A DNA stretch of 64,000 bases, from assembly GCA_010645155.1 (NCBI GenBank), contig JAAGOF010000188.1:214390-278389 (forward strand). The letters are read 5' to 3'. The stretch is from Tigriopus japonicus. Taxonomy: Eukaryota; Arthropoda; Copepoda; Harpacticoida; Harpacticidae. A program made the position numbers and the translations under genes. The notes beneath the pieces were generated by a model that saw only the letters and a program-made list of their open reading frames with translations, made no database searches and was not told the origin of the DNA. Positions 3,713 through 46,887 of the stretch are shown here, in pieces (position 1 is the stretch's first letter; every line of letters begins with the position of its first letter).

Positions 3713-4187
3713 GACATGAACGAAAGTGTTTTACCTCAAAAGCGAATTGAACGGGCTTCTAAAGAAAATAATATCTCCCAGATGTGGTAGTACAATCGTA
3801 ATAAAAGATTAGTTGCAACGATGCTTCAACACTTCCAAAATTGCTATTGTCAGCTTGAAGCCAAGTGGCAACGCTGAAGGTAATCCTTTTCATAACTAGG
3901 GCAGTGCTGAGAGTTTATTTTGGCAATTTCTCAATATGTGTGATTTTGCGGTTGGATTATTCATTTGGGAATTCCAAAAATAGCTAAAGCCTCCTAATAA
4001 TTTTGGTTCTTGATGGAAAAAATAGGTTTATTGCACTAACTGACTTTTATTTGCAATTTGGGTTGTTTTGGAGAATTGTCATTAAGATTATATAGCAACA
4101 CTGCCTTTTAGTTCAGTTGTAAACAAACATCAACGAAGATTAAATTGTTTGAATCACGCCTTCGAATATTTGTGTAGCACTTAGAAA

Positions 4188-7100
4188 ATGGAACATTCAC
4201 TTCTACGAGATAATAAGTCGCAAAATCTCAACACTCTCCCTGATTCCAAAGGCCGTCATGGCAAAGGTCAAGGTTTTGTCCAACAAGTTTTCGGATCTTG
4301 GACATGGGTTACACGCAATGAATTGGATTTTTTAAGACAAGATGGTTGGCCTTTGGTATCCATGACTTTCATGTATAATAGCGACACCGGAGAGTTCATT
4401 TCTCGAGTGTTCCATCGGACATTTGAAAAGGGGAAAATCCGGGCAAGAAAAGGCCTTTTAGCTAAATGCAAAGCGTTCTTCGAAGAAAGCTATCCTTGTT
4501 TGGGCATGAATAATGTTGAGGTAGACTCTGAAGAGTTTCCATTTCATCTTGAATTCTCATCCAAATGTCAAAAGTTAGTTCATCTGAAGAAATCTCCAAC
4601 CTATTTGGAAGGACTGGTTTGTGATCATTGTAGAGAGATGCAAACTCACACTGATGCAAGATTGCCTATCCCGTTTGAGGTTGTTTCTGAAATCGATATC
4701 AAGCCGTTTCGTGAAAGCCAGATCCTTGCCAATGATCATCAAATCTGTTCTGCTCTTGATATCTTTGCTGAAGCTGAAGATCTTTTCGAAAGGTCTGAAT
4801 CAGAAGATGATTTGAACCCGACTTCTCCCTTGAATATTTCCAATAATATTTCCATTGCACCAAAAGAAGAACCAATTAACGATTTCGAAGATCCTTTGGG
4901 ATGTAATAAATACACCAGACCGAGAAAAAGAAAAGCCGAGTTGGCTTTTTATGGCGATAGTGATGCGAGTGATGATGTTTCCGATATGGAACCCGATGTT
5001 CCCGAAAAGAGGTCCAAAGGAACTGGCATGTGTGTTTATGTGAGCTCCGATGGAACGAAACATGAGGTTCCAGAAAATTCATTTGATCCTAAAAATTATT
5101 ATGTGGAATGGGAAGGGAAAACGTTGGTCATGGAAAAAGACATTGATCTAGACAAAATTTGGGCTTGCCCAATATGTCCAAACCAAGCTCCAGGACGCCA
5201 ACGATATTCTCATTTGAAGACTCATTCACTCTATCGCACTTCTTGTGGCATTTGTGGATTACCTCATCTTTGTCCTGCCAAACTTTGGGACCACTATCAA
5301 ACTTTCCACGAAGATGCCAAAGAATGGCGAACAAAATGTGGGGTTTGTCAGAAGACTTTGAACATCAAAAAGTCCCGAAAAATGTTGGGCAATCACTTGG
5401 CTTCCTGTACTGTTAAACCATTCCAAAATTTGAACCCTGCAAGAAATATTGAGCATGTTCCCTCGGAAATACTGGAGACCACAGAGCTATTTTGTCCGTC
5501 TAATATTTCTGTCGAATATCAGGGGAAACTCTTCATTTTGGAAGGCAAGGTGTCTCGTCAAGAAATGTGGACTTGTCCTTTATGTCAAATGAAAATGAAA
5601 GGACACTCTCGTCCCCGTCATTTAAAAGTTCATGGCAAATTCTGGGTCCGTTGTGAGATCTGTTTTTCGACCCAGTATTGTGCGCTTAAACTTTGGGACC
5701 ATCACAAGGAACATCATCAAGATTGTGAAATTTGGAACGGAAAATGCGGAAAGTGCTCAGTCATGATCGACTTGAAACAATCTAGAGATGCCTTGCAAAC
5801 CCATTATTTGAATTGCACGAAATCTGCTGAGGAACCCAGTAAGACGAAAGATCGATCTAAAACCATCATAGGAATGGCCCGAAAACCTTTTTTTCTACCG
5901 CCTCAATTTGAAGTCGAATGGGAGGGTAAGGATCTGACCCTTGAGGGTTTTGTCGGGTCAATTGAGTCTTGGACTTGTCCAATTTGCTCCTTGGTCATGC
6001 TTGGTAAACAACGGTTGTTGCACTTAAGAATCCATTATCTTGTCCGTATTGGCTGTGAATTTTGCCAATTGTTCCACTTGTGCCCAAGAAAACTTTGGGA
6101 CCATCATCTTGATCAACACAATGAACATGAGAAGTGGCTAGTATACTGCGTTACCTGCAACCAGAACATTGATATCAAACCCTCAAGAGATACCTTACGA
6201 GAGCATTTAATAAGATGTTCGGAAAGTCCTCTTGGAAAGAGTGTAAGGAGCCACTTAAAACCGGGCAATCGGTAAATCAAAAATTAACTGTCACTAATAG
6301 GTTTAATCTTGAAATTGTCTGGTGCTTAAATTTTCAAGAATTTCTCTAAATTGACACTATTTTTGAGGGGATCTTGAAATTGCTGAAACAGAAGTATACA
6401 ATTTAACTTTTATGCTCAGTTTCATGTTTTGGGCCAATTTTCAGGCCCCTGCCCTTTCCAAAGCTCAATTCCAAAAACTATCTGAACTCCCTTATGGGAT
6501 GTATTTGTAAGGTAACTAAAACAAAAGTGTAGCCATTTTGCCATTTGATTCAAGAGCAAGTTGACAGATAATCTGTTTTTCTGAGACGAGGTAATTCGTG
6601 TCCATTTTAAAATTTAAAACATCTAGATACTAACAAATGATAAAAAAAACCTATTTGTAACATTGACTTTTTGACTCAACCACCGATTGTCCAGAATTCA
6701 CAATCATCCTTGCCCGGTTTTTAGTTGATCGCCTTGTAAAAAGGCCTCTGAAATCAAAAAACCATCGGACAAGCTCATTTTGTCTGCTCCTCAAAAACGC
6801 TCAATGCATAAATCCTTTGAAATGGAATGGATGGGAAAAACCATCGTTGTGCCTGAAAAGGGATCCGATTCCTTATGGACGTGTCCCTTATGTGAGAATG
6901 TTGTGAAGGAACGCATTGGTCATTTGCAAAATAAACACAACTTATTCCAAGTTCCTTGTGGTATTTGTGGTGTTTGTCACGTGTGTCCCTATAAACTCTG
7001 GGATCACATGCAAGAAACCCATGTAAGTAGTGAAAACTGGCCTATCAAGTGTCCCATTTGCAATGAGATCCTGGATATCAAGGGATCAAGAGATGTCTGT

Positions 7101-8982
7101 CGCGATCATTTGATCAAGTGTGTCTTGGAACGAAGAAAGAAAAACCGGGAAAGTAAAGAAATTAAACCTCGTCCCGTTAGAGTGTGCGAAACGTGCGGAA
7201 AAATTTTCAAGAAGAGGTACAGATTGGACAACCATATCATGAAGGACCATCAGAAAGTGAAAGCCAAATGCCCAGTATGTTCCATAGAGATCAACGTCAC
7301 GAAACTCAGCAACCATATGAAATTCGCTCATCAAGCCACTCGATTCACTTGTCCCATGTGTTTCAAACATGAGAAGTTTGCCATGACGTTTTGGGAACAT
7401 CTTCGAGACAATCATCTCGATCGGGTAAAAGAATACGCTTGTCCAGTGTGTAAGAAAGATTTCCCGATCAATCAAGAGGACGGACCCAAATTTGTGACCC
7501 ACCATGAGGAGTGTTTCCGCAAAAAATTGAAGAAAACCAAAGCGGACGAGAGAAAGCGAATGAGGGCCAAACCTAAAAATTTCCCATGTCCAACTTGTCC
7601 CAAGAAGTTTCAGGTCCAATACTTGCTCAACGCTCATCTAAGAACCCATAAGGGGATTGGTAAGTGTTGCCATCTTTGCAAATATCGCACCCATTCTGCG
7701 GCATATTTAAGAGCTCATATGCATGAAGTTCATGGAGACACATCTGATGGAGTCAAGTGTGAATACTGCCAAGAAAAGTTCCTATGCCAATCCTCATTAG
7801 AGGCTCATCTGAGCTCCAATCATGACATAAAAGCCGAACACCAGTGCGATTTATGTCCTTTGAAGCTACCGGGCAAGTTGCAATTGAAAAAACACAAGAG
7901 TCGTGTTCACCCAAAATCGGAAATGACACCTGATCAAGATTCGAACAAGTTCAAAGATCTAGAAGCCATTGAGGACCATCGTGATGAGTCGGGGCGGCAT
8001 TTGTGAGTATCTTTAAGATTAAAAAATATATTTATTACGGAAACTGAGATTTCCTTTGAAATCTAATGGAACACAAATATGATCAATACCCTTTTGTGAC
8101 ATTTGATCAACCATCCATGAACCATATTTCAACATGCTTTGTCTAGATATCCATATATTTGTTTTAAATATCCAGATATTCATGACATGAGCAGGAGCGT
8201 CCTTGAAACCCAGAAGTTCTTGGAATTTGAACGCATAGAAACGAAAGTTTGATAATTCAAGTTAGATTATTCTAAGTGTTTCTAGCAAAGTCTTGACTTA
8301 AAATTTTGTTTTGGTATATTTCTGTGTTGTAATATCTTTTCTTTTTTACTTTTTTCCCTAAGCTATTTCAAACAATGTAGTTTGTTAAAGTCTCGAGGCA
8401 AAATTATATTTTTGTTGCATTTGTAATAATCAGGCTTGATTATATGATTTAAATATGTCCAATGAAACTTGTTTCGTCATTTCATAATTTTAAATTGAAA
8501 TAACAATAAAGAAACGTTGGTATTTTTCAGATTGGTATATATAAAAACAATAATATATTTATTGGTTTATGCTTGGTTAAGCGTTTCCATGCCTAAAAAA
8601 TCAAACATAAGGCCATTAACTTGTTATTTAATATAAACTAGAGCAGTGGCATTTGTGATATTTGAGCTTGCCTTTGTTCTCTTTTAGGTGTACCATTTGT
8701 GAAAAAACATTTAATCGGAGGATTGATTTGTTGTTGCACTTGAATAACCTCCATGGGTTCAACGTGCCAGTGAAACCGTCGTCAACCTCAACGCCTGAAA
8801 GTGAGCCTCAGATACAATACATTACTCTTGTTGATGATCATTCGAAAGAGAATGCATCTATTGGAACAACAAGTGCACCAACTCTTTCGAATTCGGACAT
8901 TTCCTATTCGGTTGAAGGTTTTCCCAATCAAACCATTGTTGTTACCATTGACGACCCAAATTCCTTTCAAATTTCGATGTAG
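4188..8982 (+). CDS. ZnF-B: four-module zinc-finger protein, three exons
   Basis: Predicted exons are 4188-6242, 6744-8002 and 8688-8982, joined in frame to give about 1202 residues. ATG at 4188 opens the frame. Residues about 34-150 are the family N-terminal domain (SWTWVTRNELDF, GWPLVSM, PCLG, FPFHLEFS, LEGLVCDHC). An acidic linker with PKEEP and basic RKRK patches follows, then four three-finger modules (about 5095-5415, 5512-5820, 5908-6220, 6816-7125), each with a KLWDH core, then an FWEH module and classical fingers. Exon 3 starts at the first Cys of the last finger (CTIC) and ends with an acidic hydrophobic tail. Intron 1 (501 bp, AGT/GTAAGG donor, phase 0) is absent from the close paralogue ZnF-D. 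A nuclear DNA-binding regulator is inferred. Confidence 0.85.
6243..6743 (+). other. Intron 1 of ZnF-B, paralogue-specific
   Basis: The donor is GTAAGG at 6243 after a Ser codon. The acceptor is AAAAG before 6744. Reading across gives GKS joined to ASEIKKPSDK, which lines up with an uninterrupted stretch in ZnF-D (GKSKTPSEK...). Without removal the frame meets TAA at 6273 and there are further stops. A better pyrimidine-rich acceptor at 6723-6724 would run straight into an in-frame TGA, so the downstream AG is preferred. It remains possible that this is a disrupting insertion rather than a working intron. Confidence 0.6.
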
Positions 8983-9314: not shown

Positions 9315-12283
9315 TCAATTTGAATCGATTTTTTCTCGATCTCGAATCCTCTTAGGTCTAGATCTGGTCGCTCGTGGCATTTTTTGATGAACAAACTTGA
9401 TATGGTTATTCAAATTAGCTCCAGCCGCAGTTCTGTAGTCGCATAAATGGCACCTGAAATGGCCAAATACAGCGTTATCAATGAATCAAAATTCAAGACA
9501 AACCGCCGATGATCATCTTACTTGAAAGGCTTTTCTCCACTATGAGTGCGGGCGTGAAGCACCAAGGCAAAATTGTTTTTAAACCCTTTCCCACAAGTGG
9601 TGCACAAATGCTCCGGAGGTTTGTGGATCTTTTGGTGATTCTTAAAGCGGCTCGAATCATCCGTTTTCAATCCGCAGTCTTGACAAATATACTTGTTCAA
9701 TTGAGGATGAACACGGCGGATGTGACTACGGAAAGCCGATTCATGGAGGAATTCCTTGCCACAATGATCACACAAACAAGGTTTGGCTGGTTTGTGCGTC
9801 CTCTTATGCTTGTACAACCTATTGGAATTTGGGAATTTCCGATCGCAAACCTTACATTCCCAGGCCTTTGGATCACGTGATAGGGTAGCTTGTATTCGCT
9901 TCTTTTGTTGTTCGAGACTCTCGACATACTTTACCCGAAGACATGACTTGTATGGCTCATCACTACATGAACCTTTGGCTTCATGCTCCATTAATTGCTC
10001 AACCGTCCTAAATCCATGCCCACAAGCCATGCAAATTCGGCCGAAATACTGAACTCGTTTCTGGGCTGTTTCGACCCAACGAAACTTGAGCTTGTGGCAA
10101 GTTCCAATGTGATCCTCAAGTTCCTTCTGATCGGGTCCAAGATCAATCTCTTGCTTACAATTCGGACATTCCAACTTGGATACATCCGGATGGGCAATGA
10201 TATGTTTTGACACTTCTTTGGCCGTCTCAAATATCAATGGACAATTTGGACACACGAAATGACCCAACTGATGGCAAAACATTCTGTGATCGGGCATGAT
10301 CATAGCTGGCAGCTTCTTAAAGCAGATATGACATCCAATTTTGTTTGATTGTTGGTTCATTGATTCAACTGGAAATGGTGATTTGATTGGGACTTCATAC
10401 TTGTTTGAGATTTCGTCTTCGTCTCCGTCTTTGGAAGCGGATTCGGTGGTTTCGTCCAATTCTTCCAATCCGATGTCAACCGAATTCTTAAGAAAGTCGT
10501 CCATGTTGAGCAAAAGACATGGAGTTATATTCTTGGACGATGCAGGTTTGACATTAGCATTCATTTGCTTACCGTCACATCCATTTTCAAGATGAGTCAA
10601 GAGATCGCCTTTGGTTTTGTGTAATTTATGACAGTGGCCACACTGATAGAGGGTCGAGGACAGGTTAGATTCTTGAGAAACTTTCGCAACCTCAACACTT
10701 TTTGCCTCTGGTAACTTTTCGAGGTTTGTGCAATCCTGACTTTTGTGACGTAACAAATCGTTATAATTCAAAAAAGTTCCTCCACAATATGTGCAAACCG
10801 TGCCAGAAAAGAGAACACGTTGACCTTTACTATTTGTCATGAAAATGATTGTGTGACAAGCAGTCATGTGGTCATTCAGATGTTGAATACTAAAACTTTG
10901 ATCACAATTGGGACAAACCAAGAATTTCACGTCTTGGTGAGTCTCAGTAATATGATCTGTTAGTTCTTTGGCAGTGTCAAAACTCATTGGACAGGCGTTT
11001 GATTTAAAATCACCAATACCGTGGTTAAACATCAGATGAGTACTCCAAGCCTGAGGACTTACTTTCTTGAAACATTTAGGACAAGCGTCTGTCGTTAAAT
11101 TGGCCAAATTATGCTTGCGTGTTTTGAAACAATTCTTTTTTACAGTCCTGTCAGGGCTTTTGATGGGCGGACTTGGCGCCACATGATTTTTTTCATCCAA
11201 TGACTCATCTGTCTCAGTCATTGGAGGAGATTCATCATTTCGAAGGTCTGTTTCTGAGATCGGAGAATCTGCCATTTGATTCGAATGTTCTAATGAAGGA
11301 AAAAATAAGTTGGTTGGGGTTTCCAAGGTAGGATCATACTCGTCAGATGTGTCCAAGATTTTCAAAGGATCTTCCAAAGGATCTTCTTCAATTGATTTTT
11401 GCGAAGATGGAATCTCGCGAGAACAAATTGTCATGTGGCTTAACAATCTTAATTCGCAAGTAAATGGTTTACAACAATGCGGGCACACATTGAGTTTACG
11501 GGCGTGTTCTTCACTTTCCAACACTTGAATTTTGTTCGTCAAGCACTTGCGAAAATGATTCGACAATGACTCAAGTTCACCACTTAACTGAATACTCATT
11601 GGACACACTGGGCAAAACACCTCATTAACCTCAGGATGTTCTTGTAAGGTATGAAAGCATAAATCTTTTGCATCTACAAATCGATCCGAGCAATGGAAGC
11701 AATAAAATTGACTGAAGAAATGAGATTTTTCCAGGTGATTTCTCATCTCAGTCGATGGAACATGTTCTGGGCACATTGGACACCACCAGCTTCCTTCATT
11801 CCTTTGTTTCAATGTCTTGAGAGTTTTGCAACCCTTATCAAAGATAATATCAATTGCCACATCCTGAATATCCTGCCAAAATTGGACAGGATTCTCAGCG
11901 GATTCTACGCAAGCTTGACAAATCTTGGATTGGTCAGATTTAGGAATCATGACTGAGCAGTTCTTAGAAAATTGGCAAGACAATGGAAATTGAGCATCAA
12001 GGGGTTTCATGCCCAAACAAGGTGTTCCACTATTGAACAACTCGTGGCATTTCCGGAGAAACTCGGGGAAGCTGTTGACTCGTCCGGATTCAACGAGTCT
12101 ACCTAGAACTCTCCAGATATATTCGTGAGTTTGGGAATGATACATCATGGTTAAGGACACGAAAGGTTTGTTATCGATTTGAATATCAGGCTCTTGAAGC
12201 ATGAATAATTGCCATTGGCCTAAAGACACCTTGGCGAGATTGACCCGATTGAGAGGAATTATAATCCGATTCTTCATGTCCAT
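9315..12283 (-). CDS. ZnF-C: diverged cluster zinc-finger protein, two exons
   Basis: Exons on the minus strand are 12283-9522 and 9453-9315, joined phase 2 (AA/G before the first Cys), giving about 966 residues. Residues about 17-130 are a diverged copy of the family N-terminal domain (GQWQLFM, FVSLTMMYHSQTHEYIWRVLGR, PCLG, FPLSCQFS, CQAC). Three degenerate three-finger modules follow, each ending in a CPxC...H...C finger; the middle one reads SNACPMSFDTA, so a metal-binding Cys has probably been lost. The C-terminal fingers are classical, with a SGEKPF linker split by the intron. The last exon adds CHLCDYRTAA...HIKFVH and a basic Arg-rich tail. No KLWDH core is present. It is the only cluster member on the minus strand and converges on ZnF-B. 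Confidence 0.87.
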
Positions 12284-14428
12284 CGTGACAAAATAGACCC
12301 TTGTAAGTGAACTTAGAGGGTTTGTCTCTTGGTTTGGACTTCTTGATGGGAAAGAAGCATTGTTATGTTCGAATATTGTAGAGTCTCCATAGCGCGTGAG
12401 AAGAAAAGCGCCAAAATTTAGACAAAAAGCGCAAGAAAAAACGCACAGATTGGCAAGATTATGTCAAAAAGGCGCAAGAAGTATAAATGATCAATTTATT
12501 CACAATTTGAACAAAAGAAATGGCTGTGAAATTGTAATTTATCTCAAATGATAGTTAAGGCAAACGTTCAGTTGTTGTCCTAAATCAAAAAGATATTTTT
12601 CAAAGCCGAAAAAAGACATGCACCATAAAGAATAGATGGAATCAAAAGACAAAAACGAGGAGTTTTTAGTCCAAAGACCTCTGAAACATATGTCTTCCGA
12701 CTTAAAAAGAAAAAAACGATTAGCCAACATCGAACACATGAGCAATATTAATTTCTAAAATGAATATTGTTTTTTTTTTTTATAGTCAGTTGCTTTTGGT
12801 TTCGTTTTCAAGTAACCAAACCTCTTTCGGCTGAAACTTTAGGTTTCGGTAAAGACCCCTACCGGTCCATCAAGATTGATTATTCCATTTGATCTTTTTT
12901 CGTTTTGAAACTGAAACAAACTTAGTTGTCCTTGAAATAAGGAGAAAAAGGTCTTCTTGTTGAGCATAAGTGGCTGCATGCATGCTATGTTACCACCATG
13001 ATATTCAGAAAGCAAGCAAAAGAAAGAAGGCGTTCATGCTTTCTGGCACGAACATGAAGTCCTCCTGTCACATGATAAATGACAAACCTGATGAAAAGTG
13101 TATGAATATAATAGGTATCAGTATAATTGTGATGCTTGAACTTTAAATTGCTAATCTTTCAAAAGCTTCAACTTTGAGAAAGTGCAAGATTTTTAATCAA
13201 AAAGCGCAAAGCGCCAAATCAAAATTTTGAGAGCGAGGAAGGGGCAAAAAGCGCAAAATTGGCGCTAAAGCGCAATATATGGAGACTCTGAAACTAAATG
13301 AAAACAAACGTTTAAAGCAGGGTGGCCAATATTTTGTAGAGAAATAGAGTGGATGGAACTTCTGAAGATCTAGCATCAATTCAGACCTGTGTCAAACACT
13401 TTCTCGATTTTATTGGATGAACTGATCCTTTTACACATCCAAGAGAAAAGTTTACTTCCAAAAAGAATCAAATACAATGATTTCGGTTTGAAAAGTAACA
13501 ATTACATTGGTTTAAAAAACATGACTTATGATTACCCCGGTTTCAAAAGTAATTAAGTGCCATTAATTCGGTCTTAAAAGCAATCTTCTTTGGTTTCAAA
13601 AGCAAGTGATTACAATAACTTTTTCACTTTCAAAAGTAATTTATATTCAAAAGGTCTCAAATTATAGTGGAAACCCATTTAATTCTACAGAATGCAAATA
13701 TTAATGCTAGCCGGTCATTGGCTTGCTTGGGTCGTAAGATTTTTTGTAGTAGGGTGAAAATGCGACTATTTTAATGAACTTTCATTTTTATTTTCTCATT
13801 TGTGCACAAATGTTGACGATAAAGTTGTATAATTTTCAATCACTTCGAAATGTTTTGCAGCCACGTAAATCTATTTTCTTTCACAAGCTTGGATTACTTA
13901 GTCTCATATATTAGTAATAGCGGCTTGTCCTCCTAAAGAGTTGTTTGTCCATTGTTGTTAGAGGCCAGAAATAACCAAAGGTTCAAACATGTGAAAAATA
14001 TTTGGATTATTGGAAATGGAGAATTTTCAAAATTCAAGCAAATCGATCAAAATCTGCAACAAACTTAGGCTGAGTCCTAATATGTAACGGATGATGCATA
14101 TAAATTTATTGACGTCCTCGCGGGGTCAAATTTGTAAATTGATCTTTTTCAAAGATTTAAACTCATGACTTTAAAATGAGCATTCTCAAAAGCCATAAAA
14201 GCGAAAGGGCGGATCTTGTCTAAATCTCTAGATTTGCAATATTTAATGTGTTCCAACAAAATGAATGATGAAAACTGAATTTTTAATCTCGAGGGGAATG
14301 ATTATTCTCCATGTATAATTTCTTTGGTCACCCTACTCCTACTTTCCCCTTTTCAATAAAAGAGTGAAATAGTCAAGTCAAACAAGTCCTAAAACAAATT
14401 CCCATCTTACCACTTAACATTAGTCGTG
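12284..14428. other. Region between divergent ZnF-C and ZnF-D
   Basis: No gene seen. The region serves as the 5' flank of both ZnF-C (leftward) and ZnF-D (rightward). An inverted-repeat element occupies 12380-13289. The remaining 1.1 kb is AT-rich, with several short GGTTT(C/T)AAAAG-like repeats at about 13480-13660 and nothing else recognised. Confidence 0.5.
12380..13289. mobile_element. Inverted-repeat element with AGAGTCTCCATA ends
   Basis: AGAGTCTCCATA at 12380-12391 is mirrored by TATGGAGACTCT at 13278-13289. Just inside both ends are clusters of AAAAAGCGC and GGCGC motifs (12400-12480 and 13198-13275), in inverted arrangement. No coding capacity and no clear target duplication. It is probably a non-autonomous DNA transposon of about 0.9 kb lying in the ZnF-C promoter flank. 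Confidence 0.55.
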
Positions 14429-17400
14429 ATGGATTGTTCGGCTTCCAGTAATCAAAACTCTCAGACTCTCAACGCCCTCTCAAGTACCAAATGCTGTAAC
14501 GACAAAAGCCCAGGATTGGTCCAACTTGTTTTCGGTTCTTGGACATGGATTACACGAAATGGTTTAGATGTTCTGAAACAAGATGGTTGGCCTTTGGTAT
14601 CCATGACTTTCATGTATAATAACGACACCGGAGAGTTCATATCTCGAGTATTACATCGCAAATATGAAGTAGGGAAAATCGAGGGAAGAAAAGAACTTTT
14701 AGCTAAATGTGAAACCTTCTTTGAAGGAAACTATCCTTGCTTGGGCATGAATAATGTAGAGATAGAATCTGAAGAGTTTCCATTCCATCTTAAGTTCTCT
14801 TCCAAATGTGATAAGTTAGTTCATTCGAAGAAAAATCCAACCTATTTGGAAGGAATGGTTTGTGATCATTGTAGAGAGATGCAGGCTCCAAGATTGTCCA
14901 TGCAATGTGAAAGTGTTTCTGAAACTCAATCTCAGCATTTGATGAAAGGACATTATGAAATCGAATCTACGCTTGAAATCATCGCTCAACCAGAAGATTT
15001 CTTTGAAATACCTAAAACTGAAGAATGTCAAACTCCTTCCATGAAGATTACCAAAATGATTGCCCCAAAAGAAGAACCTATTGAAAATGAAAACGTTCTC
15101 GAAAATTTGGGAAGGTTTTCAGGATTAAGAAAATCTTCTAGACCGAGAAAAAGAGCCGTTGATGCAAGTTTTTTTAAAGATGAAGAAACAAGTGACAACA
15201 ATTCTGATTTGGAGACCAAGCCTCCCAAAAAGATTATTGGAAGAACTCGCCGTATTAAAAACGATAACCGCAATAAATTGAAACACGTGGAAAGCAAATT
15301 TGATCCCAACAACTACTACGTTGAATGGGAAGAAAAAACTCTGGTCTTGGATATGAACATTGCTAAAGATATGATGTGGGCATGCCCCATTTGCCGTGCC
15401 CGAGTAAAAGGACATTCCAAGTTTTCCCATTTGAAGACACACTTACTTTTCCGAACTCCATGTGGCATCTGTGGACTACCTTTTCTTTGTCCCGGAAAAC
15501 TTTGGGACCACTTCCAAAAGCTCCACGTAGAATCTGACGAATGGTGGGCAAAATGTGGGATTTGCCAGAAAACTTTAAACATAAAGGAATCCAGAGACTC
15601 ACTTGGTGATCATTTGGCTGCTTGTAGTCTCAAGCAAATCCAAGATGGAAGTCACAAGAACACTTCTCAAGGAGCTCATCTGGAAGTGATTCGTCCATCA
15701 AATTATCTCGTTGAATATCAGACGAAGCTTTTCACTCTAGAAGGCAAGATTCCTCCTCAAGAAATGTGGTCTTGTCCCATTTGTCCAGAGAAAGTCAAAG
15801 GGTTTGCCCGACCAAGTCATTTGAGTTCACATGGGAAATTCTGGGTCCGTTGTGAGATTTGTCTTTTGACCCACTTTTGTGCCCTTAAACTTTGGGACCA
15901 TTACACAGTGTATCATCAAGATGCCAAGACTTGGAAAGGAAAATGTGGGCAATGCTCAACCATGGTCGACATGAAAAAATCCAGGGATACCTTGCAAAAT
16001 CATTACTTGGATTGCCTGAAATCTGTCAAGACCAATGATTCATCGAAGGAGCTTTGTCTGCCATCTCAATTTGTTGTGGAATGGGATGGCAAAGACACAA
16101 TCATGGAAGGTCATGTCGAACCCTTTGAACAATGGACATGTCCAATTTGTTCTTTGGTCATGCTTGGAAAGCAAAGAATGTTACATTTAAGAATCCATTT
16201 CCTTCTCTGTATTTGTTGTGGATTCTGCCAAACGTTCCACTTGTGTCCCAGAAAACTTTGGGACCATCACCAAGATCAGCACATTGAGCATAAGAAGTGG
16301 CTAGTTAATTGTGTTACCTGCAAACAGAAGATTGATATCAAACCCTCAAGAGATACCTTTAGAGAACATTTGATGAAATGCTTGGAAAGTCCTCGTGGAA
16401 AGAGCAAAACACCTTCCGAAAAGATCATGTACATCAGCAAGTCATTGAACAAGCAAATTCTGTCAGCTCCTCAGAAGCTTTCATTTGCCAAATCCTTTGA
16501 AGTGGAATGGATGGGAAAGACCATTACCATACCTGAAAAGGACCCTGATTCTTCTTGGATGTGTCCCTTGTGCGAGAAGGATGTTAAGGAGCGCATAACT
16601 CACCTAAAGAATAAGCATAACTTGTACCAAGTTCCTTGTGGCATCTGTGGTATTTATCTCATGTGTCCTTATAAGCTTTGGGATCATATGCAAGAAAGTC
16701 ATGCTAAAAGTGAAAACTGGCCATTCCAGTGTCCCATTTGCAATGATATCCTGGATATCAAGGGATCAAGAGATGTCTGTCGAGATCATTTGATCAAGTG
16801 TGTCTTAGAACGAAGAAAAGGAATGCTTAGGAAAAGAGATACAACGAAATATCCAATCAGAGTTTGTGAAACATGTGGAAAGACCTTTAAGAAGAGGTAT
16901 AACCTGCTCAATCATATCAAAGAGGAGCACCAGAATATGAAGCCAAAATGTCCGGTGTGTTCAGTTGAAGTAAGCTTTGCCAAACTCAACCATCACATGA
17001 AAGTCGCTCATCACGCTACTAAATTCACTTGTCCCATGTGTTTCAAGAATGAAAAGTTTGCTTTGACGTTTTGGGAACATCTTCGAGACAATCATCTCGA
17101 TCGGATAAAGGAATACACTTGTCCAGTTTGCAAGAAAGATTTCCCAATCAATCCAGAGGATGGACCTAAATTTGTGACCCACCATGAAGAGTGTTTTGGC
17201 CAATATTTGAACAAACTCAAAGAAGGTGAAAAGAAGCGAATGAAGGCCAGACCTAAAAAGTTCCCATGTCCAACTTGTCCCAAGAGTTTCCAGGCCCAAT
17301 ACTTGCTCAATGCCCATATGAGAACCCATAAGGGGATTGGTCAGTGTTGTCATTTATGTAAATATCGCACCCATTCCGCGGCATATTTAAGAGCTCATAT

Positions 17401-17671
17401 GCATGAAGTTCATGGTGACACGTCCGATGGAGTCAAGTGCGAATACTGTCTTGTCAATTTTATGACCCATGCCTCATTGGAGGCTCATCTAGACTCTTCT
17501 CATGGCATCAAGGCCGAACACCAGTGCGACCTTTGTCCTTTGAAGCTACCGAGCAAGTTGCACCTAAAGAACCACAAAAGAGATATTCACCCAGAGTCTG
17601 TAATCGGGTTCGATGGTCGCTCAAACCAACTTCTTGAAAGCCGTCGTGACGAATCGGAGCATTTTCTGTAA
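14429..17671 (+). CDS. ZnF-D: four-module zinc-finger protein, main exon
   Basis: ATG at 14429 (the frame is open a codon earlier at a GTG) opens about 1080 codons. The layout matches ZnF-B: N-terminal domain (SWTWITRNGLDV, GWPLVSM, PCLG, FPFHLKFS, LEGMVCDHC), acidic linker with APKEEP, four KLWDH modules (about 15313-15620, 15706-16015, 16075-16385, 16501-16805), an FWEH module, and classical fingers (CPTCPKSF, CHLCKYRTH, CEYCLVNF, CDLCPLKL). Here all four modules lie in one uninterrupted exon. A GTAAGA donor at 17668, at the family's conserved phase-2 position, overlaps the TAA stop. The expected last exon is damaged (19116-19218), so the working protein may end at 17671 or gain a scrambled tail. 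ZnF-B is its closest relative in the window. Confidence 0.9.
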   Translation: MDCSASSNQNSQTLNALSSTKCCNDKSPGLVQLVFGSWTWITRNGLDVLKQDGWPLVSMTFMYNNDTGEFISRVLHRKYEVGKIEGRKELLAKCETFFEGNYPCLGMNNVEIESEEFPFHLKFSSKCDKLVHSKKNPTYLEGMVCDHCREMQAPRLSMQCESVSETQSQHLMKGHYEIESTLEIIAQPEDFFEIPKTEECQTPSMKITKMIAPKEEPIENENVLENLGRFSGLRKSSRPRKRAVDASFFKDEETSDNNSDLETKPPKKIIGRTRRIKNDNRNKLKHVESKFDPNNYYVEWEEKTLVLDMNIAKDMMWACPICRARVKGHSKFSHLKTHLLFRTPCGICGLPFLCPGKLWDHFQKLHVESDEWWAKCGICQKTLNIKESRDSLGDHLAACSLKQIQDGSHKNTSQGAHLEVIRPSNYLVEYQTKLFTLEGKIPPQEMWSCPICPEKVKGFARPSHLSSHGKFWVRCEICLLTHFCALKLWDHYTVYHQDAKTWKGKCGQCSTMVDMKKSRDTLQNHYLDCLKSVKTNDSSKELCLPSQFVVEWDGKDTIMEGHVEPFEQWTCPICSLVMLGKQRMLHLRIHFLLCICCGFCQTFHLCPRKLWDHHQDQHIEHKKWLVNCVTCKQKIDIKPSRDTFREHLMKCLESPRGKSKTPSEKIMYISKSLNKQILSAPQKLSFAKSFEVEWMGKTITIPEKDPDSSWMCPLCEKDVKERITHLKNKHNLYQVPCGICGIYLMCPYKLWDHMQESHAKSENWPFQCPICNDILDIKGSRDVCRDHLIKCVLERRKGMLRKRDTTKYPIRVCETCGKTFKKRYNLLNHIKEEHQNMKPKCPVCSVEVSFAKLNHHMKVAHHATKFTCPMCFKNEKFALTFWEHLRDNHLDRIKEYTCPVCKKDFPINPEDGPKFVTHHEECFGQYLNKLKEGEKKRMKARPKKFPCPTCPKSFQAQYLLNAHMRTHKGIGQCCHLCKYRTHSAAYLRAHMHEVHGDTSDGVKCEYCLVNFMTHASLEAHLDSSHGIKAEHQCDLCPLKLPSKLHLKNHKRDIHPESVIGFDGRSNQLLESRRDESEHFL

Positions 17672-20927: not shown

Positions 20928-23900
20928 CTGCAAACGGTAGAAACACCCAATTAAACTTGATGTGATATGATTAAGCAAAATTAAGCAAAAAATTAGACCC
21001 ACGCCATGACTGTGGCAGTACTGTAGCGGCGAATCAGGTAACCATAAGCTGTTCGTGGGCAATTGAATCCACAACCCAATTGTTCACGATTATGTTCTCC
21101 GCCCAAAAGATGGCCAAGCTCGTGAGCAAAAATGTATCTGATGGAAGAAACACAAACCATTAGTTTGGACAGGAAGCACTGAAGTTCATTGAGTGGGAGG
21201 CTAGTGAGAAGAATTACGATTTCCGATTAAGGTTCCTAACGTCCATAGAATGGGAACATATTTTAAATTACAAGCAAAGAGCGATTCAAGACTTTATTTT
21301 GTAATTCAAGCTTTTGTGAGTGTGCTATAGATGCCAAATGGTCACTTTAGCACATTCAGAAGAAGAAATAGTCATTACGGCACTGAAATTTAAAGCCTTA
21401 AAAGTAACACATTTTCAACATTTTGGCTTAAAAAGTTTAAACGTTTGTATTGTTTAGGTGTGACGACATTCGTGCACAAAAAAATTACAACTGACAGACA
21501 AGAGTCTACAATTTGGCTATAACAATGAGTCTTTTTTCTCCAGCATTGATGTCGTATCTACAATCGATAAAAGTTGATGTTCCTACAATTGGAACGTTTG
21601 GACCTTTAGGTATCAAAAATTACCTACAAACGATCTTGACGTTTAGTACTGGGACCTTGATGTCATTTTCGAAACATGCCCCATGAGGTGTATTGGCCTC
21701 AGTGCAAAACCTTGTTTCAAAAAAGACATCGTTGCACGTCAAACATGGGCAAAAACGAGCCAAAATACTGTTTGGTTATAAGTTATAACCAAACATAACT
21801 TATATATACTTATATAACTTATAACAATAGAAAAGACAGTTTTGATGGAAACGAAAATATAGGCAGAACGAAATTTGGAACCTACGTTGACGTAATATTT
21901 ATAATGGATTTCGCCACTTTCAATCGATTTTTTTTTTTTGGGGGGGGGGGGAGCCTTTTTAAGACCGCTACAAGGAATGGAATTCCCTGTAAAGAGAGTT
22001 AATTATTAATATAGTTTATATAATTACCGTTTTTATGAAATTTGATCTACCAATGTGTTACTGATGGCAGATCTGTACAACCCTTGAATAGTGGGTTGGT
22101 CAGGAATAGTATTTAAAAATTTGTCCAATCCTGCCTTAAATGCTGTTAGAGGATTAGCTCCTACATATTCCCGACAAAGACTAATGGGTAACAAATTGAA
22201 CAATGAAGGAGCCCGATAAAGATTTTAGAGTATATTTTTTTAGAAAGGTGTGTTAAAAGTCTGGCTATTTCGGTACCGGAAGGTCCTAACGTTCCCAGAG
22301 CGGGAACATTATATTTGAGTACCTAAAAACATTAGAATCTTAAATTTAACGATTCATTTACGTTAGTTGAAGTTCAAACAGTACCTCTGATAATAATGAG
22401 ATCAAAAGACCAACCCCGTCACGTCACCGTAATTAAAGGGTTAAATCGGATCTATAACGTTGTTCTCCAAATGAGACCTTTCTTGTGATGAGTAGACTTT
22501 TTATTTCAGATCAATCGAATTTTAGAGTTGTTAGTTATGCTCTCTCAAAGCTCAGTGCAAATACTACATGGAATGAATAAGATAGCTCTCTTCTGATAAT
22601 TGGTATTCCACCAAAGGGTGAGCTTATTCTTTCTACTTAAGCTCTCTTCAGTTTGGGAAGGCACAATTTTGCACTCCATGATTTGATTGAGCTGGAAATT
22701 GAAATTGAAGTACGTGGGGTACCCAATCCAAGCAAGGCCTCATTCCCAGAAGAAAGCAATAGATTTGATTCTAATTATCATCGATATCCTCCTTCAAGTA
22801 CGCCTCCTTAAAGATTCTTTAGCTTCCAACGGAAACTTAACGTGTTTGGTTTGAACTTCGGTTCCGTTTTTGCATACGCCATTCCAATTCAATAACAAGC
22901 ATACGACGTATATTGTAGTGGCTTGAATTTTGAAGAGATTTTCATTTGACTATTAACTAAATTATTCAAAATAGATATTCTTGTCAACCACTCATGGTTT
23001 CATTAAGTTATAACTAAATTTCAGTATTGGTGAAGAGCTCTAAATTCATCTCTACTTCGTTGCTTTGATGTGCCAGAAATTTGCGACCTTGAGCATGCAT
23101 CTAGTTTTTTGGCTAAACTTCGGAAAACTGTCAAGAAATAATTTTTGGTGTTTAGTTTGCTGACAAAAAATAGCCAAAGAGCAAGAACAGTTCACTGGTT
23201 TCTTGTCTTTAGAAGTTGGGATCAAATCAATTTTTCTTTAGGTTTTAATGATGGTGATAGGTTGAACCGAAACCGGAATCGAACACTGTCGACTGCTAAA
23301 TGAGAGCACAGTATTAATCGCAAACGAAGAAAAATCACAATCTTTTACATTTCGTTGTTTATGATTTCCTATAAAAATATTTCAAAACACTTCAAGGGCT
23401 TCTAATGTTAATATTAAGGAATTATAAGGCCCAAGTTTTCTCCCTGGACTATACACGTACATTGCAACCTTGCTAATCCTCTTAAAAACTTTAACCTTCT
23501 AAGTAAACAAGCTCAACCAAGGCTCAATTGTTTCAAAAGATCTGAAAAAGAATTGCTCCTTACGAAGGTGCGCCTAACATTGGTACCCATGCAAAACGGA
23601 TTGGTTGGCCACCAATTGGGTTGATGACATTGATTGTAGATGCCCATCCACAAGCATCAGGTGCGCAATTGAACGTCAGCAGTATGGCTATATCAGCGCC
23701 ATCGTAAAGCCTGTCAAATGTGCTGAAGTATCGTTCTCCCCTCTTAAGAAACTGATAACCCGTTCCACCTTCCCTCACATTCATCAATTCAGAGCAAAGG
23801 GCTCGAAGAGTGATGGGAATGTTCGATTTCTGCATCACTAAGTTCGTTTCTATGATTTGCCTTTCCATGAAGGCTCTCAAGTTGGGAGTGTTGGCAGATA

Positions 23901-26900
23901 AGGCTGGGGTGTAATACAATTTGATTGTAATTTCCACTTGTTCATTAGACTGACGAGACTCTTCCAAGAGCTCAGCTATAGCAGGATCAAGTGTCCGATC
24001 AAGACTGGTTCGATTTAAACCGGGAAGAGAGAAATCCAAATGATAGGAGAAAGTTGCATTGATGGTCCGCCACAAGTAGCAATCTGGCCCGCAATTGACG
24101 AGGTCAAATTTTCTTCCATAAGCCGTGTCTATGCTCAAGATGACATCGTTGTCAGTGGTGATCGTAATTAGACCCAAACTAAGGTGTTTTCCTATTCCCT
24201 AAAAAGTAGAAATGATTCGCAATAAAAGCACTCTAAAAGTAAATGGTTTCTGTTATGAGCTCTTTTGGCTCGTTTGTATAATATAATGCAAGGACATGTA
24301 TAATGGGACGATATACAGGGTGTCCTGTATTGTCTTATACACTTTTTAAAACGTTTAAAAATGCAATTTAAAGTGCCCAAATCGAAATATTAAAGATTGA
24401 TCGATGTTCAGTGGGTCGCCAGCTTTAATTTACGGTGCTTACGACAGCTGTACCTTGAAAACAGTGGTCGCTACGTCCAAAAATGTCGGACCGCCGCTTT
24501 GACGTCACCAGGGCCACCGTCTACAACGCGAAGAAGCCGTTCAACGCCACCTACCGCCAGCGCCACCGCAATATTTAATGCGATGGTGGACGGTGTGCGC
24601 GTGGATCGAGGCCTACCTGGGCTGAGATGCTTGGAGAAGCCCTCGGTGGAGTTGAACAGCTTTTACACGTTGTAGACGGTGGTCCTGGTGACGTCGAAGC
24701 GGCGGGCGATGTCGGCGTGCCTTTCGCCGGCGTCGATCCGCGCGTGGATCCTTTCTCGAAGTTCCGACATTTTTGGAAGTAGCGGCCACTGTTTTCAAGG
24801 AGCAGCTGTCGTAAGCACCGCAAATTAAAGCTGGCGACCCACTGAACCTCTATCAATCTTTAATTTTTCGATTTGGGCACTTTATATCGCATTTTTTAAC
24901 GTTTTAAAAAGTGTATAAGACAATGCGGGACACCCTGTAAGTGGTGTATTTCAAGTTGTAAAGTGGAATATGGCAAAGTGTTGCCATTGTGATCCTTATT
25001 TAGGCTTTCGGGTCAAAAATCGCACTACAACCAGACTCTTTGGAAGGCCAATGACTTAAACTCAAAGTAAAAATGGCAGCACTGACACCTTGAAACATAC
25101 TTCAAAAGAGCGGGAAAATAAAGTTGTTTGGAGCGTAAAAAGTACTTTTTTGTGTGGTCAAGATGGCGTTTATGTGATAAGGAGTTGGAAATATGTGGTT
25201 TATAAACAGCTAAATACTACGTTACATGTTACATTTCAAGGATTTTACTACCATAAATCCCTTTTTGATCATAAACAGATCTAATTGAACAGATTTAGCA
25301 TAAAAAATCAATCACGTAAGGACTGATAGCATTCTCAAACAACTGTCAATTTTGCAATCTTTTGATATTTTTAAATTTTATGAGTGGTATGTGAAATTAG
25401 CTAACTAATAAACACAAGCAGAACTCACAAATTGTGTAAAAAGTTAGATTTATAATGAAAATAGGCTTGGTAAAAAAACAAAGTGTATGTTGCTTTGCAA
25501 TTAAATGATTTATTGAAGGTGAAACAAGTAACAGTTCCTGACCCTGGTAGCGAGAAGACCATCCCATAATTGATCAATTCAAATTTTAGGTTTCATTATT
25601 TGATCCAGAACACTACATAACGACTAACCTCGTTGAAATTGACAAACAGATTTTATAAAAAGAGGCCGCTTTTCCAAATTTTGCCAACATTGTGACTCTG
25701 CCAGGCATAGAATCTAAAAAAAGTAGTTATTCTGCACTCAATTATGGTTTGAAACACCAACTTTGTCAAATCATGTTTAATCTGATTTTTTTCGTCAAAT
25801 TATCAATCATTTGGAGATAAACAACTCCAAAAAGACCTAAATATGTGGGTTTTACTCAAAAATGATGAAATGCTTCTTCTCCCAAAATGTGAAAAAAAAA
25901 CTTATTTAATTTATTCACATAAGTTCCCGCCCTTTAAATTTTAGATAATATATTTTAGACATTCTCGATAATATACGTGGAAACTGGCGCAACAATTGAA
26001 GAATCTTTAGCAACGCTGCTCAGGATTTGAAATTTAATTACAGCGAAACCTATTGTTTAATTGCGAATTTTCAATTTCAGCTGGAAAGGATCAGTTTCAC
26101 CAATTTACTTCTTATCATCAGCATATTAAGAAATCATAATCTAGTACCAATGTAAGCCAGACAATTCTAAACACGGGTGGAACTCCCTCTTAACACCACA
26201 CTTGAAATCGTGTTTGAGTTTATCTCTCTCTTATGAGCTTTTTTGTATTCTTGTCAATGAATTGCTTTAGGACAACATTTTTAATTGTAAAAAATGCTAT
26301 GAATGTCAATAATTGATGCCTTGGCCTAACCATTTGCTTTGTTTCCCTCATGCGTTTCATCCAGTGATGAATCATACTCTAGATCCAAACTCTTAGTTTT
26401 TTTAAGCAAAGGCTCCTGATCCACCTTGCCAAATATCTACAAACATAATTATGACTTCCAAGCTCGGCTTGCTCTATTTACCCAGCCAGGAACGGCTATG
26501 CCAACTAACTTAGGGCCGCAAAGAAGCTCAAGATCCAAGATATTATTTATGTGACCGTGTTGCTGAAATCTGTGTTCAGCAGAAGTAATTATCAGGGCCA
26601 CTAGATAGTTGTAAATTGCATTTTGTTATGTAATTACCAAAATCTTCCATTTTTGTCCAAAATTACAAAAATGGGGTAAATCTTACAAAAAAATTGAAAA
26701 ATTGCTTGTTCTACTGAAAATTTTCTGAAAAGAGCTTGCTTGGTCCATCAGTCAAAATCAAACTCAAAATCAAAATATGAGCATCAAATGGCCAAAAACT
26801 AATTTTCCTGCCTTAGGTATCAATAATTCTTGCAATATTTTTGTCAGTATTCAGAGTGACAGGAAGGGCTTGATTCTATAATTGTGTACCTCGTCTTCAA

Positions 26901-31029: not shown

Positions 31030-32130
31030 ATTAATGACTCCAAGATGTTTCACTATGGAACCCCCTCCCACCCTCTATTCGCTCCATCCAAACCATCGGA
31101 AAATTCATAATTTGATAAAAATAGTTCCTCTGCAACAATTTTATTCCAGAGACCCCCGACTTTTGCACTCTATAATGCTTTAGATTTGCCTTTTCTTAAT
31201 GACGTGTGATTGGTGCCAAACTGAACTGAGTGAAAATGCAGATTTGACAAAAAATGAATTAGCACTTAATAAGAAATAAACAAACAAATGAGCAAAAATT
31301 GTTAAAACAATGAAAATCTGGAACAAAATATAAAACATGGTAAAAGAGATAGCTCAGCCCAAGATTTTTCGGTTCCGGGTCAGGATTAGTTCAGCAACAT
31401 TTCGAATGGGATTGGTTCGCTTCCGAACCGAAATATGTCATTTGCAAAATAAACCCCATACTGCCATATTCTACAACACTTTCAAGAAAATTTTGACATT
31501 TTTCTGCGTTGCATATTTTAGCTATCGTCGAAAATTTTCCTTCTCGTTTCTTTAGGTCGAAAATTTTCGCCATACTGCCACTTTTTTCTTTTTCACTGCC
31601 ATCGAGTTTTCTATGCTGCCACCTGGCATCACTGAGTGAAACTATCGTAGCTGATGGCAAGGTGCCTTAAAATAATGAGTTTTTTTACTTAAATTTTGGA
31701 AGATAGAATACAAACTAGAATCGGGTAAACTTTGATGAGACATATCATTTTCTATCGAAAAATTAGGGTGAAGTTTCTTTTTCAAAAATTATATCTTTTC
31801 AGTAGAAAAAGACCAGCGCAGTACGTAAATCAAAAAGCACCCTGAAAGGAAAGATTCATGGAACAAAGACCATCCAGACGTTTCATAATCTGTTCCTTTT
31901 CATTTCTATAGTGCTGAGTAGTATGAAATATCTCTAACACATTAATATGTAGATAAAAAGAATGCGTAAAAACAATTGCTGTAACCTAGATGGAAGATAA
32001 AGGATACGTGTAAAAATAAAATCTCTTAGTGTGAAACAATCATTCATTTCATTTTTTCCATTCTACGCTCACATACGAATGTCAACAAGAGTCAAAAAAA
32101 AAAAAAACGAGAAAATATTTTAACTCAATA

Positions 32131-35100
32131 ATGGCCAAGGCTTCAAAGAGCCGCAAAATCCACCTTTCAACTCAATCGTGTTCCAAAATCGAGCTAGATT
32201 TTATTCCAGATCCCGTCGTGGTGGCCGAATCCGGCCTTGTGTCCCTAGATTTCGGCTCCTGGACATTAGTAACTCGAAGCAACCTTGATTTTGTAAAAGA
32301 AGGAGGATGGCCTTTGACGTCGATGAACTTCTTGTACAACAACAAAACTGGCGAATACATATCCAGGGTATTCAATCGAACCGTCGAGTCCGGGCAAATA
32401 CCTCAAGGACAAGTTCTGTTGTCTAAGTGTCGAGACTTTTTCCTCAACAACTTTCCTTGCTTGGGCATTAATTATTACGAATCAGAAGAATTTCCATTTC
32501 ATTTGAGCTTTGCTCTGGATTGCCAAAAGCTTGTCCACTTAAAACAGGCTCCTAATACTCTTGAAGGCTTAATCTGTGCTCATTGCAATTTAAATCAACC
32601 CAAAAATGAGGACCTGGCGTCATTTTCTTTGGATAATTCGACAGACGTCAAAATTGAACCTGAAGATGTGGCTAATCATGATATTTTGGCGGATGCTGAA
32701 GACATCTTTAAGGCAGAATCTATCATTAAAAATCCAACAAGGTCCAAAAAGAAAAAGTCTTTGAAAGTGTCGAAAGTGAAAGATGAACAATTTATTTCTA
32801 AAAATGATTTATCAAGGTCAGTGCCATTGAGAAAATCCACGAGATGCCGGAAACGTCGCCGACTTTGGTCCAATTCGGACTCGGATATTCAAGGAGACAA
32901 TGCGTGTGATGAATCTGGCTCCGATTTTGAACCGGATATTGAGACAAGACGTTCAAAAAGAGTCGCATCGACGCGAACTCGAAAGAGTCGAATCTTATTG
33001 TCTGATCCTGATTTTTATAAAGTAGATTGGCAAGGCCATGAAATAACTGTGGTATGTAATGTCGATGAGGAACAGATGTGGAATTGCCCCGTGTGTAGTG
33101 CAAGTATTCAAGGCCAACATCGGACAACCCATTTGAACACTCATTTGTTGTTTCGCACTCTTTGTGAGCTTTGTGAAAAGCCTCAAATTTGCGCCAAAAA
33201 GCTGTGGGATCATTATGAAGCAGAACACAGCAAATCAGAAGTTTGGCAGGTCGTGTGTGCCATATGTTCCGAAAAAGTGGATATCAAACAGTCCCGACAA
33301 ACTCTTTGGAATCATTGGAAATCATGCTATGCCAAAGATCATGAAGATAACGTGAACAATTCTAGCTTAATCAAAACTCGTCGAAGTGTTCCTTTGGACC
33401 TTTATGCACCCTCAAGTTATTTGGTTGAACATGAAGGTCAAACCTTCACTTTTGACGGTAAAGTACCACGGAATCAAATGTGGACTTGCCCGTTGTGTTC
33501 ATTTGAAGTCAAAGGTGCCGATAAAGCAAAACACTTGAAATATCATGGAAAATTCCGAATCAGTTGCCAAGTCTGTAGCTTGGCCCATTACTGCCCTCTG
33601 AAGCTTTGGGATCATTGGCATGATCTTCACCCTGAGCAAAAGGTTTGGAGTGGTAAATGTTCAGTTTGCTCAGAAGTGTTTGACATTAAAGACTCTCGAA
33701 ATAAGCTTCAAGATCACTTTGTGTCTTGCTTCCAAACATCACAAGAGATGGGGAAAGAAAAGCCAAAACCAGCGCCCAAAATCGAACCCAATTCTGATGC
33801 TGCAAGACCAAGCAGATTGATAAGAAGACCTCAAACATTTAGGGGAACCACACCAAAACACCTGTTTAATCCCCCAACATTTGTTGTTGAATGGGAGGGC
33901 AAGGATCTGGTTTTACCTGGTTATGTGGGACCAGAAGAAACATGGATCTGTCCCATGTGCTCCACTGAAATGCTTGGAAAGCAAAGGATGACCCATTTAA
34001 GGATACATTTCTTCTTCAGAATGGGATGCGAGATATGTCGGCTATTCCATTTGTGTCCCAGGAAACTTTGGGATCATTATCAAGAAAAGCATGGCAGCGA
34101 AAAAGTGTGGCAGGCGTTGTGTTTGGTTTGTGCCGAACTCATTGATATTCAAGATTCAAGAGATGCCTTCAGAGATCATCTTTTGGACTGCATGAGAGCT
34201 CCTGTCATGGCCAAAAAAGGGTTGGGTAATGTCATAAGTAGTCCGAACACAGATATGAAAGTCTTGTCTCGCGTACCTCAACATTTATTTGTACCCACCA
34301 CCTTTGAAGTAGAGTGGTTGGGCAAGACTGTGACGATCCCTGGCAAACTCTCAGGTAAAGGCAAATGGACTTGTCCCTTGTGCCATGAGGTCATTCAAAC
34401 CTCGAGAAATTGTCACTTAAGAAAGCACAACTTGATTCGAATTGCATGCGGGATATGTGGTTTGTTCCACATGTGTTCCTATAAACTCTGGGATCATTAC
34501 AACACCCTTCATCAAGCGAACGAAAAATGGCCTTGCAAATGTCCCGTTTGTTCCAAAGTTTTGGATATCAAAGAGTCTCGAAACAAATGTCGAGACCACG
34601 TGGTCAATTGTTTTGTGAGGACTAAAAGAGAAAAATACAAAGCTAACAACTTGACCAATAAACCGGGAACAGTCATTGTGTGTGAAACGTGTGGAAAGAT
34701 CTTCAAGAACAAACGTGTTATGGAACGTCATGTTCTTAAAGTCCATCAAGACAAGAAATTGACCTCAAAATGTGAGGTTTGTGCGATTGAATTAAGTGAT
34801 AGCAAGCTTCGAAGACACATGAGAAATGTCCATTTAGCCGCCCGATTCGAGTGTCCCATGTGTTTCAAGGTTGAGAAATTTGCCCGAATCTTTTGGGAAC
34901 ATTTGAGAGACAACCATTTGGACCGGGTCAAAGAGTTCCCTTGTCCGTGTTGTAAGCAAGTGTTTCCAATAAACCTAAAAGATGGACCAAACTTCCCAAT
35001 TCATCAAGAAGAGTGTCTTCGCCAACATCTCAATCAATTAAAAGAAGCGGAAAAACAAAGGTTATTGGCCAAACCCTTAAATTATCCTTGTCCAATCTGC

Positions 35101-46852: not shown

Positions 46853-46887
46853 TCTTGGACAATCTAAGCTAGTCAAGGCAATTGGGA

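Follow-up and report, generated by a model that had tools for sequence, protein, structure and literature searches.

KRAB and SCAN are described as N-terminal domains of vertebrate C2H2 zinc-finger proteins (PMC5509000). In the ZAD, another N-terminal domain of this kind, four cysteines hold one zinc ion; dimers are reported for several members, and the ZADs of Zw5, Pita and Grauzone are reported to take part in nuclear localisation (PMC5081699). A review counts 98 ZAD proteins in Drosophila melanogaster against 4 in Daphnia pulex and describes the ZADs of the insulator proteins that it covers as strictly homodimeric (PMC5509000). In cyprinid fish, an expansion of C2H2 genes is marked by FiNZ, which is presented as a lineage-specific N-terminal domain belonging to no known family (PMC10547256), and the TTK-type BTB domain is presented as an arthropod-specific, lineage-expanded oligomerisation domain of transcription factors (PMC11426971). 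Here we describe a further domain of about 125 residues, found in a stretch of 64,000 nucleotides of the copepod Tigriopus japonicus (assembly GCA_010645155.1, contig JAAGOF010000188.1, positions 214,390 to 278,389, forward strand; hereafter the window). We read it as the N-terminal domain of a large Tigriopus C2H2 family, with a predicted cysteine-tail zinc fold and a probable function as a homotypic contact module, a reading that we consider about equally likely to hold or to fail.

The domain is common to the seven window zinc-finger genes that we label B to H, and 17 columns are invariant over the approximately 125 aligned residues of the seven copies. Identity to copy E is 44-54% for copies B, D, F and G, 27% for C and 22% for H. 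With copy E as query, a six-frame search of the 195 Mb genome recovers B, D, F and G at expect values (E) of 1e-45 to 4e-31, C at E 8e-12 and H at E 9e-6; by this search, the likeness of the seven copies is not due to chance. The copies are located as follows:

4263 to 4640, forward strand: N-terminal domain of gene B (genome match at C54:218661, E 1e-45; C54 is the window's own contig)
11891 to 12256, reverse strand: N-terminal domain of gene C (seven-copy alignment; groups in the family tree with copies of the C7 cluster)
14504 to 14881, forward strand: N-terminal domain of gene D (alignment; genome match E 7e-44)
32221 to 32607, forward strand: N-terminal domain of gene E, the modelled copy (alignment; AlphaFold2 mean predicted local distance difference test, pLDDT, 88.0 and predicted template modelling score, pTM, 0.80)
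36465 to 36839, forward strand: N-terminal domain of gene F (alignment; genome match E 4e-41)
50602 to 50979, forward strand: N-terminal domain of gene G, C-terminal to a THAP domain (alignment; genome match E 4e-31)
53560 to 53934, forward strand: N-terminal domain of gene H (alignment; Tigriopus californicus relative P0005, E 3e-61)

A preliminary description of the window had located these seven copies correctly to within a few residues, and all are in frame. Its statement that every complete zinc-finger gene begins with the domain proved right for the listed reading frames of at least 120 residues, and it extends to an eighth finger gene (1-1330), which runs off the left edge of the window and has its domain just outside, at C54:213533. 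Two features go beyond that description: four fully invariant cysteines in the domain, and the THAP domain that precedes it in gene G.

All 55 own-genome copies aligned keep one tryptophan, one proline and the four cysteines without change; these copies were chosen, from 97 genomic places, by a profile match of at least 80 positions, a selection that could have passed over a copy lacking the tail. The four cysteines are likewise invariant in all 23 rows of an alignment that includes members from T. californicus. Their layout is C, C, CxxC, with the first two about 20 or more residues apart, and a zinc site formed by these residues is the simplest reading. The preliminary description had stated that the domain lacks the CxxC...CxxC layout of the ZAD. 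This stands insofar as only the last pair is CxxC, but the four invariant cysteines make the domain ZAD-like in having a predicted Cys4 zinc site. In copy E, the putative ligands are located as follows:

32458 to 32586, forward strand: span of the four invariant cysteines, the predicted zinc ligands (codons at 32458, 32521, 32575 and 32584)

The AlphaFold2 model of copy E, a confident one, was built from 23 sequences, with pLDDT of 82.6-88.0 across five models, and predicts strands at residues 6-11, 14-19, 35-40, 45-50 and 53-59, followed by a helix (64-74), a short strand (77-79), a mostly irregular tail that bears the cysteines, and a short helix (120-124). The order of secondary-structure elements was read from the model, and the fold of five strands, a helix and a cysteine tail is a predicted one. 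Foldseek and VIA-align listed no good match among solved structures. The VIA-align rows cover mainly residues 1-80, so the tail was barely probed in this comparison, and the absence of the ZAD fold (Grauzone, 1PZW) from the matches that the two programs listed excludes nothing. Against a viral structure library no match reached E 0.001; short phage proteins of unknown function appeared there with probabilities up to 1.00.

The preliminary description had called the domain unrecognised and unlike KRAB or SCAN, and the profile search of Pfam, together with searches of NCBIfam and PDB sequences, returned no convincing match. In Pfam, just two models came up for the seven window copies with the cut-off at E 10, their best E being 0.033 and 0.27, and 23 members gave four models at E up to 1, each in one or two members, the best being Integrin_B_tail at E 0.002. 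NCBIfam matched single members only, at E 0.045 or worse, and the best PDB sequences stood at E 0.015 with a 7-row profile and E 0.024 with a 23-row profile. No Pfam match to KRAB, SCAN or BTB was found in the window genes, the seven copies or the 23 members, nor any to THAP inside the new domain in the 23 members. The domain was not met in the titles or abstract openings of the literature surveyed. Pfam zf-AD, the model of the ZAD (PF07776), matched none of the 23 members at E up to 1, and the same model applied to the genome found one place, at E 7e-4, which appears to carry the ZAD cysteine pattern:

L074 380 to 604, equivalent to C8:5653479-5653703: the sole ZAD detected in the genome (match within a 132-residue open frame)

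A profile comparison of the new domain with this ZAD aligned 8 columns, at a probability of 0.65%.

In the genome searched (194.85 Mb in 158 contigs), the domain occurs at 97 places, 93 of them within ten clusters; the biggest hold 29 copies on C4, 25 on C7, 10 on C54 and 8 on C4. The queries were copies E and H (E up to 0.1) and one copy from each of three further subfamilies (E up to 0.001), which gave 90, 75, 46, 34 and 53 matches, respectively. Matches less than 700 bases apart were merged to yield the 97 places; counts of this kind are lower bounds, as the search tool itself states. Internal stop codons fall within the match at three of the 97. In a tree that combines 55 own copies with 17 database proteins, copies group largely by cluster; window gene C is placed with the C7 copies. 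Six of the 12 T. californicus proteins in the tree adjoin an own-genome copy or share a small clade with one, and therefore at least six lines of the family predate the split of the two species.

The domain sits ahead of C2H2 finger arrays, in the place that, as the preliminary description had noted, KRAB, SCAN or the ZAD occupy in other families. Between 3 and 16 finger-like motifs lie C-terminal to it in 51 of 53 loci read, with a finger pattern that is loose and with some loci clipped at their ends; the two loci without such motifs are the first frame of gene F and L049, a short frame. Pfam C2H2 fingers were found in all ten members picked from different clusters. A single uninterrupted frame encodes both domain and fingers in most copies, and the fusion is therefore independent of any gene model; the fingers of gene F lie in the next frame. 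Gene G is the only one of the seven window genes with a THAP domain ahead of the new one, and THAP domains also occur in transposases.

All 13 relatives that bear a species name come from T. californicus. The nearest of them are two: P0002 is a relative of E (69% identity over the part searched) and P0005 a relative of H (65%); near-identical database copies were also found (P0001, 99%; P0004, 97%). The taxonomic range was assessed by a word-based protein search, in which a 12-row profile retained 16 proteins of 4223 candidates, ten of them from T. californicus; one profile match, P0021, is a truncated near-copy of own-genome gene L071. The named matches do not contradict the proposal, in the preliminary description, that the domain may be lineage-specific, but the test is a weak one: the profile failed to recover P0004 and P0005, although one of its own rows is closely related to both, and absence elsewhere is accordingly supported weakly. 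Members of the family are now labelled "C2H2-type domain-containing" or carry the names of unrelated human zinc-finger proteins. One public gene model, P0003 (T. californicus TCAL_02219), has the head of the E relative and a tail resembling the second frame of window gene F, and is probably two neighbouring genes run together.

To compare the domain with the fingers between species, pairs were defined as reciprocal best matches by the finger part. Seven of 12 T. californicus proteins have an own-genome partner, and five have none among the copies read. Five pairs were picked by hand, and a systematic reciprocal-best check added L068/P0011; we use the sums of these six pairs, in all of which the fingers are at least 80% identical, and exclude a seventh (L072/P0012, fingers 68%) as doubtful. 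The domain is identical at 690 of 934 positions (74%; range 64-93%) and the fingers at 1054 of 1134 (93%). In all six pairs the domain is less conserved than the fingers, though only slightly in L068/P0011, where it reaches 93%. Taking the DNA-contact positions, four per finger, to be numbered as in Zif268, 193 of 208 contacts are identical between species, against 705 of 770 other finger positions. Among 11 non-overlapping paralogue pairs, contacts agree at 111 of 244 positions versus 495 of 890 other finger positions, and are the lower in seven of the 11 pairs. Duplicates thus tend to shift their apparent targets, while orthologues seem to retain theirs. The domain itself is only 20-30% identical in 781 of the paralogue pairs compared, and its nonsynonymous divergence (dN) is lower than its synonymous divergence (dS) in every listed paralogue pair with a computable dS.

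Some recent duplicates are mosaics. In three recent sets comprising seven pairs (L027/L030/L054, the C11 trio and L034/L045), domain dS is 0.08-0.41, and dS of the later segments computed is higher, at 0.28-2.46, except in one L027/L030 segment where it is 0. In ten pairs drawn, DNA identity is about 0.4-0.8 just upstream, climbs at the start of the domain and, in most, drops again near 360 bases, as it also does in window genes B and D; in L027/L030 it stays high further, with a dip. In a count of identical codons at conserved residues, nine of the 11 non-overlapping pairs score higher in the domain (Wilcoxon p 0.054), with p under 0.05 in five pairs and under 0.0045 in three, including B/D (81/96 in the domain vs 175/268 elsewhere, p 4e-4). 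Because this set had been chosen by domain identity, the pairs were re-ranked by the rest of the protein, whereupon the domain is higher in nine of 20 (Wilcoxon p 0.70), and by silent identity of the rest, whereupon it is higher in eight of 22 (p 0.35). L027/L030, C11 and B/D still show an excess in the domain after re-ranking; the pair formed by E and the edge gene runs in the reverse direction (p 0.045). Gene conversion as a general process was rejected on these counts (9/20, 8/22 and the reversed E pair), the pattern being confined to a few recent sets. Codon bias was rejected as a cause, since silent identity of the domain in distant pairs is 0.40, compared with 0.44 for the rest. Our reading is that domain-limited gene conversion between neighbours may have occurred occasionally, in a few recent sets; a similar pattern would result if the domain were transferred onto other finger arrays.

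The cysteine tail of the domain likely binds one zinc ion, and the domain likely acts as a homotypic protein-contact module that forms dimers or oligomers, in a role like that proposed for the insect ZAD; such self-contact would join DNA sites selected by the C-terminal fingers. Recent duplicates retain the domain as their fingers diverge, and between species it is the fingers that are retained and the domain that drifts more. A bolder version, in which a new zinc-binding fold of the copepod line took over the self-assembly role of the ZAD in some 100 genes and was further spread by gene conversion between neighbours whose fingers keep diverging, is tentative and in our view rather doubtful. 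The suggestion in the preliminary description that the domain may be the founding feature of the expansion is conjectural.

The best-surviving alternative is that all copies bind one common co-regulator and the fingers merely pick the site, which we regard as unlikely. KRAB binds its co-repressor, and the position of the new domain ahead of the fingers, as well as the tandem clustering of most of the genes, would suit such a role. FiNZ provides a precedent: the C2H2 family that carries this lineage-specific N-terminal domain is described as repressive (PMC10547256). The highly conserved domain of L068/P0011 also favours recruitment. However, one would expect a surface held in place by a common partner to be conserved above all else in the protein, whereas in every species pair the domain is conserved less than the fingers, and the 781 paralogue pairs have drifted far apart in it. 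We prefer homotypic contact to recruitment of a shared cofactor because the domain is less conserved than the fingers between species; its divergence is easier to reconcile with a homotypic or co-evolving surface than with a single fixed cofactor, although this is an argument and not a test. Of the two putative functions that the preliminary description had put forward, oligomerisation and cofactor binding, the divergence thus favours the first.

It is improbable that the domain is a very divergent ZAD, that is, a ZAD-like Cys4 knuckle to which strands and a helix were added N-terminally. Four invariant cysteines, the last two in CxxC, N-terminal to C2H2 arrays in an arthropod would be expected of it, and the single ZAD detected in the genome looks as if the others had been replaced; yet zf-AD matches none of 23 members at E up to 1, the profile comparison with the genome's own ZAD reaches a probability of 0.65% over 8 columns, and the first cysteine pair is widely spaced rather than CxxC. 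We give equally little credence to an arms race, in which the fingers chase mobile elements that the domain silences: the family is large and in tandem, KRAB is a precedent, as is FiNZ (PMC10547256), one member (gene G) carries THAP and paralogue contacts diverge beyond other finger positions in seven of 11 pairs, but contacts are as conserved as other finger positions in the six species pairs. On these data the family resembles stable regulators, each with its own sequence specificity, more than one caught in an arms race.

The reading frames that carry the domain in the window, and the THAP domain, are:

4185 to 6275, forward strand: gene B frame, domain and finger modules (likely resumes in the frame at 6729-8006)
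9518 to 12463, reverse strand: gene C frame, domain and fingers (reading frame, Pfam, finger pattern)
14393 to 17671, forward strand: gene D frame, domain and fingers (reading frame, Pfam, finger pattern)
32035 to 35523, forward strand: gene E frame, domain and fingers (reading frame, Pfam, finger pattern)
36315 to 38826, forward strand: gene F (domain in its first frame, 36315-37337; fingers likely in the frame 37504-38826)
50203 to 52350, forward strand: gene G frame, THAP, new domain and fingers (reading frame, Pfam)
50227 to 50463, forward strand: THAP domain of gene G (PF05485, E 2e-13, residues 9-87)
53449 to 54948, forward strand: gene H frame, domain and fingers (reading frame, Pfam)

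Genes B, D and E (5090-6230, 14393-17671 and 32035-35523) contain repeats of a unit of about 115 residues with unusual fingers (VEW.GK ... CP.C ... HL..H ... C..C ... KLWDH ... C..C ... DIK.SR); no Pfam C2H2 match was obtained in the first frame of gene B. The frame of gene B stops and resumes across 6275-6729, a gap of about 450 bases that the continuous frame of neighbouring gene D does not have; it is either an intron or a break. In gene G, a 93-base tandem repeat (2.1 copies, 51009-51199) lies behind the new domain. L049 (1432-1896, reverse strand) has an intact domain and a frame that stops ahead of any finger, with DNA similarity to L056 continuing beyond; it is either a pseudogene or a split gene. 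Elsewhere in the window, 2481-2870 and 46496-46867 are alike in translation and apparently the same dispersed repeat, minisatellite arrays at 40387-40932 and 41559-41767 have a 9-base ATCCCGTTT core and a 21/40-base unit, and a 212-residue frame at 23560-24198 (reverse strand) is unlike the surrounding zinc-finger genes.

Among the described systems, the ZAD (zf-AD, PF07776) proteins of insects appear to be the nearest functional analogue, by likeness of role. Both domains are N-terminal with fingers behind, have four cysteines and a zinc site (predicted here) and belong to large, clustered arthropod expansions; the new domain, however, lacks a sequence match to zf-AD, has only its last cysteine pair as CxxC, carries five predicted strands and a helix ahead of its cysteine tail, and spans about 125 residues versus 75 positions of the Pfam model. 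As a new lineage-specific N-terminal domain and the mark of a C2H2 expansion, the module has its closest precedent in FiNZ, and we set FiNZ apart by its features as described: 28 residues and rich in glutamate (PMC10547256), in contrast to about 125 residues, a predicted fold and an invariant tryptophan, proline and four cysteines. The new family also differs in that its fingers are conserved between two species. KRAB and SCAN share the N-terminal position in C2H2 proteins (PMC5509000), but the new domain matches neither and is strand-rich by prediction; the TTK-type BTB domain is another arthropod-specific, lineage-expanded case (PMC11426971), but no BTB match was found. Of the sequence features of these systems that could be tested, the new domain shares only the position ahead of C2H2 fingers. 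A description of it would name a family now hidden under generic or unrelated zinc-finger labels, and its four cysteines and species pairs are ready targets for mutation and binding tests. Vertebrates with KRAB and SCAN, cyprinids with FiNZ and insects with the ZAD each have an N-terminal module of their own on an expanded C2H2 family, and a crustacean case with its own cysteine-bearing module, folded by prediction, in a genome where a single ZAD is detected, opens the question of which property such modules have in common. The domain is best filed, by analogy with the ZAD and FiNZ, as a new N-terminal C2H2-associated domain.
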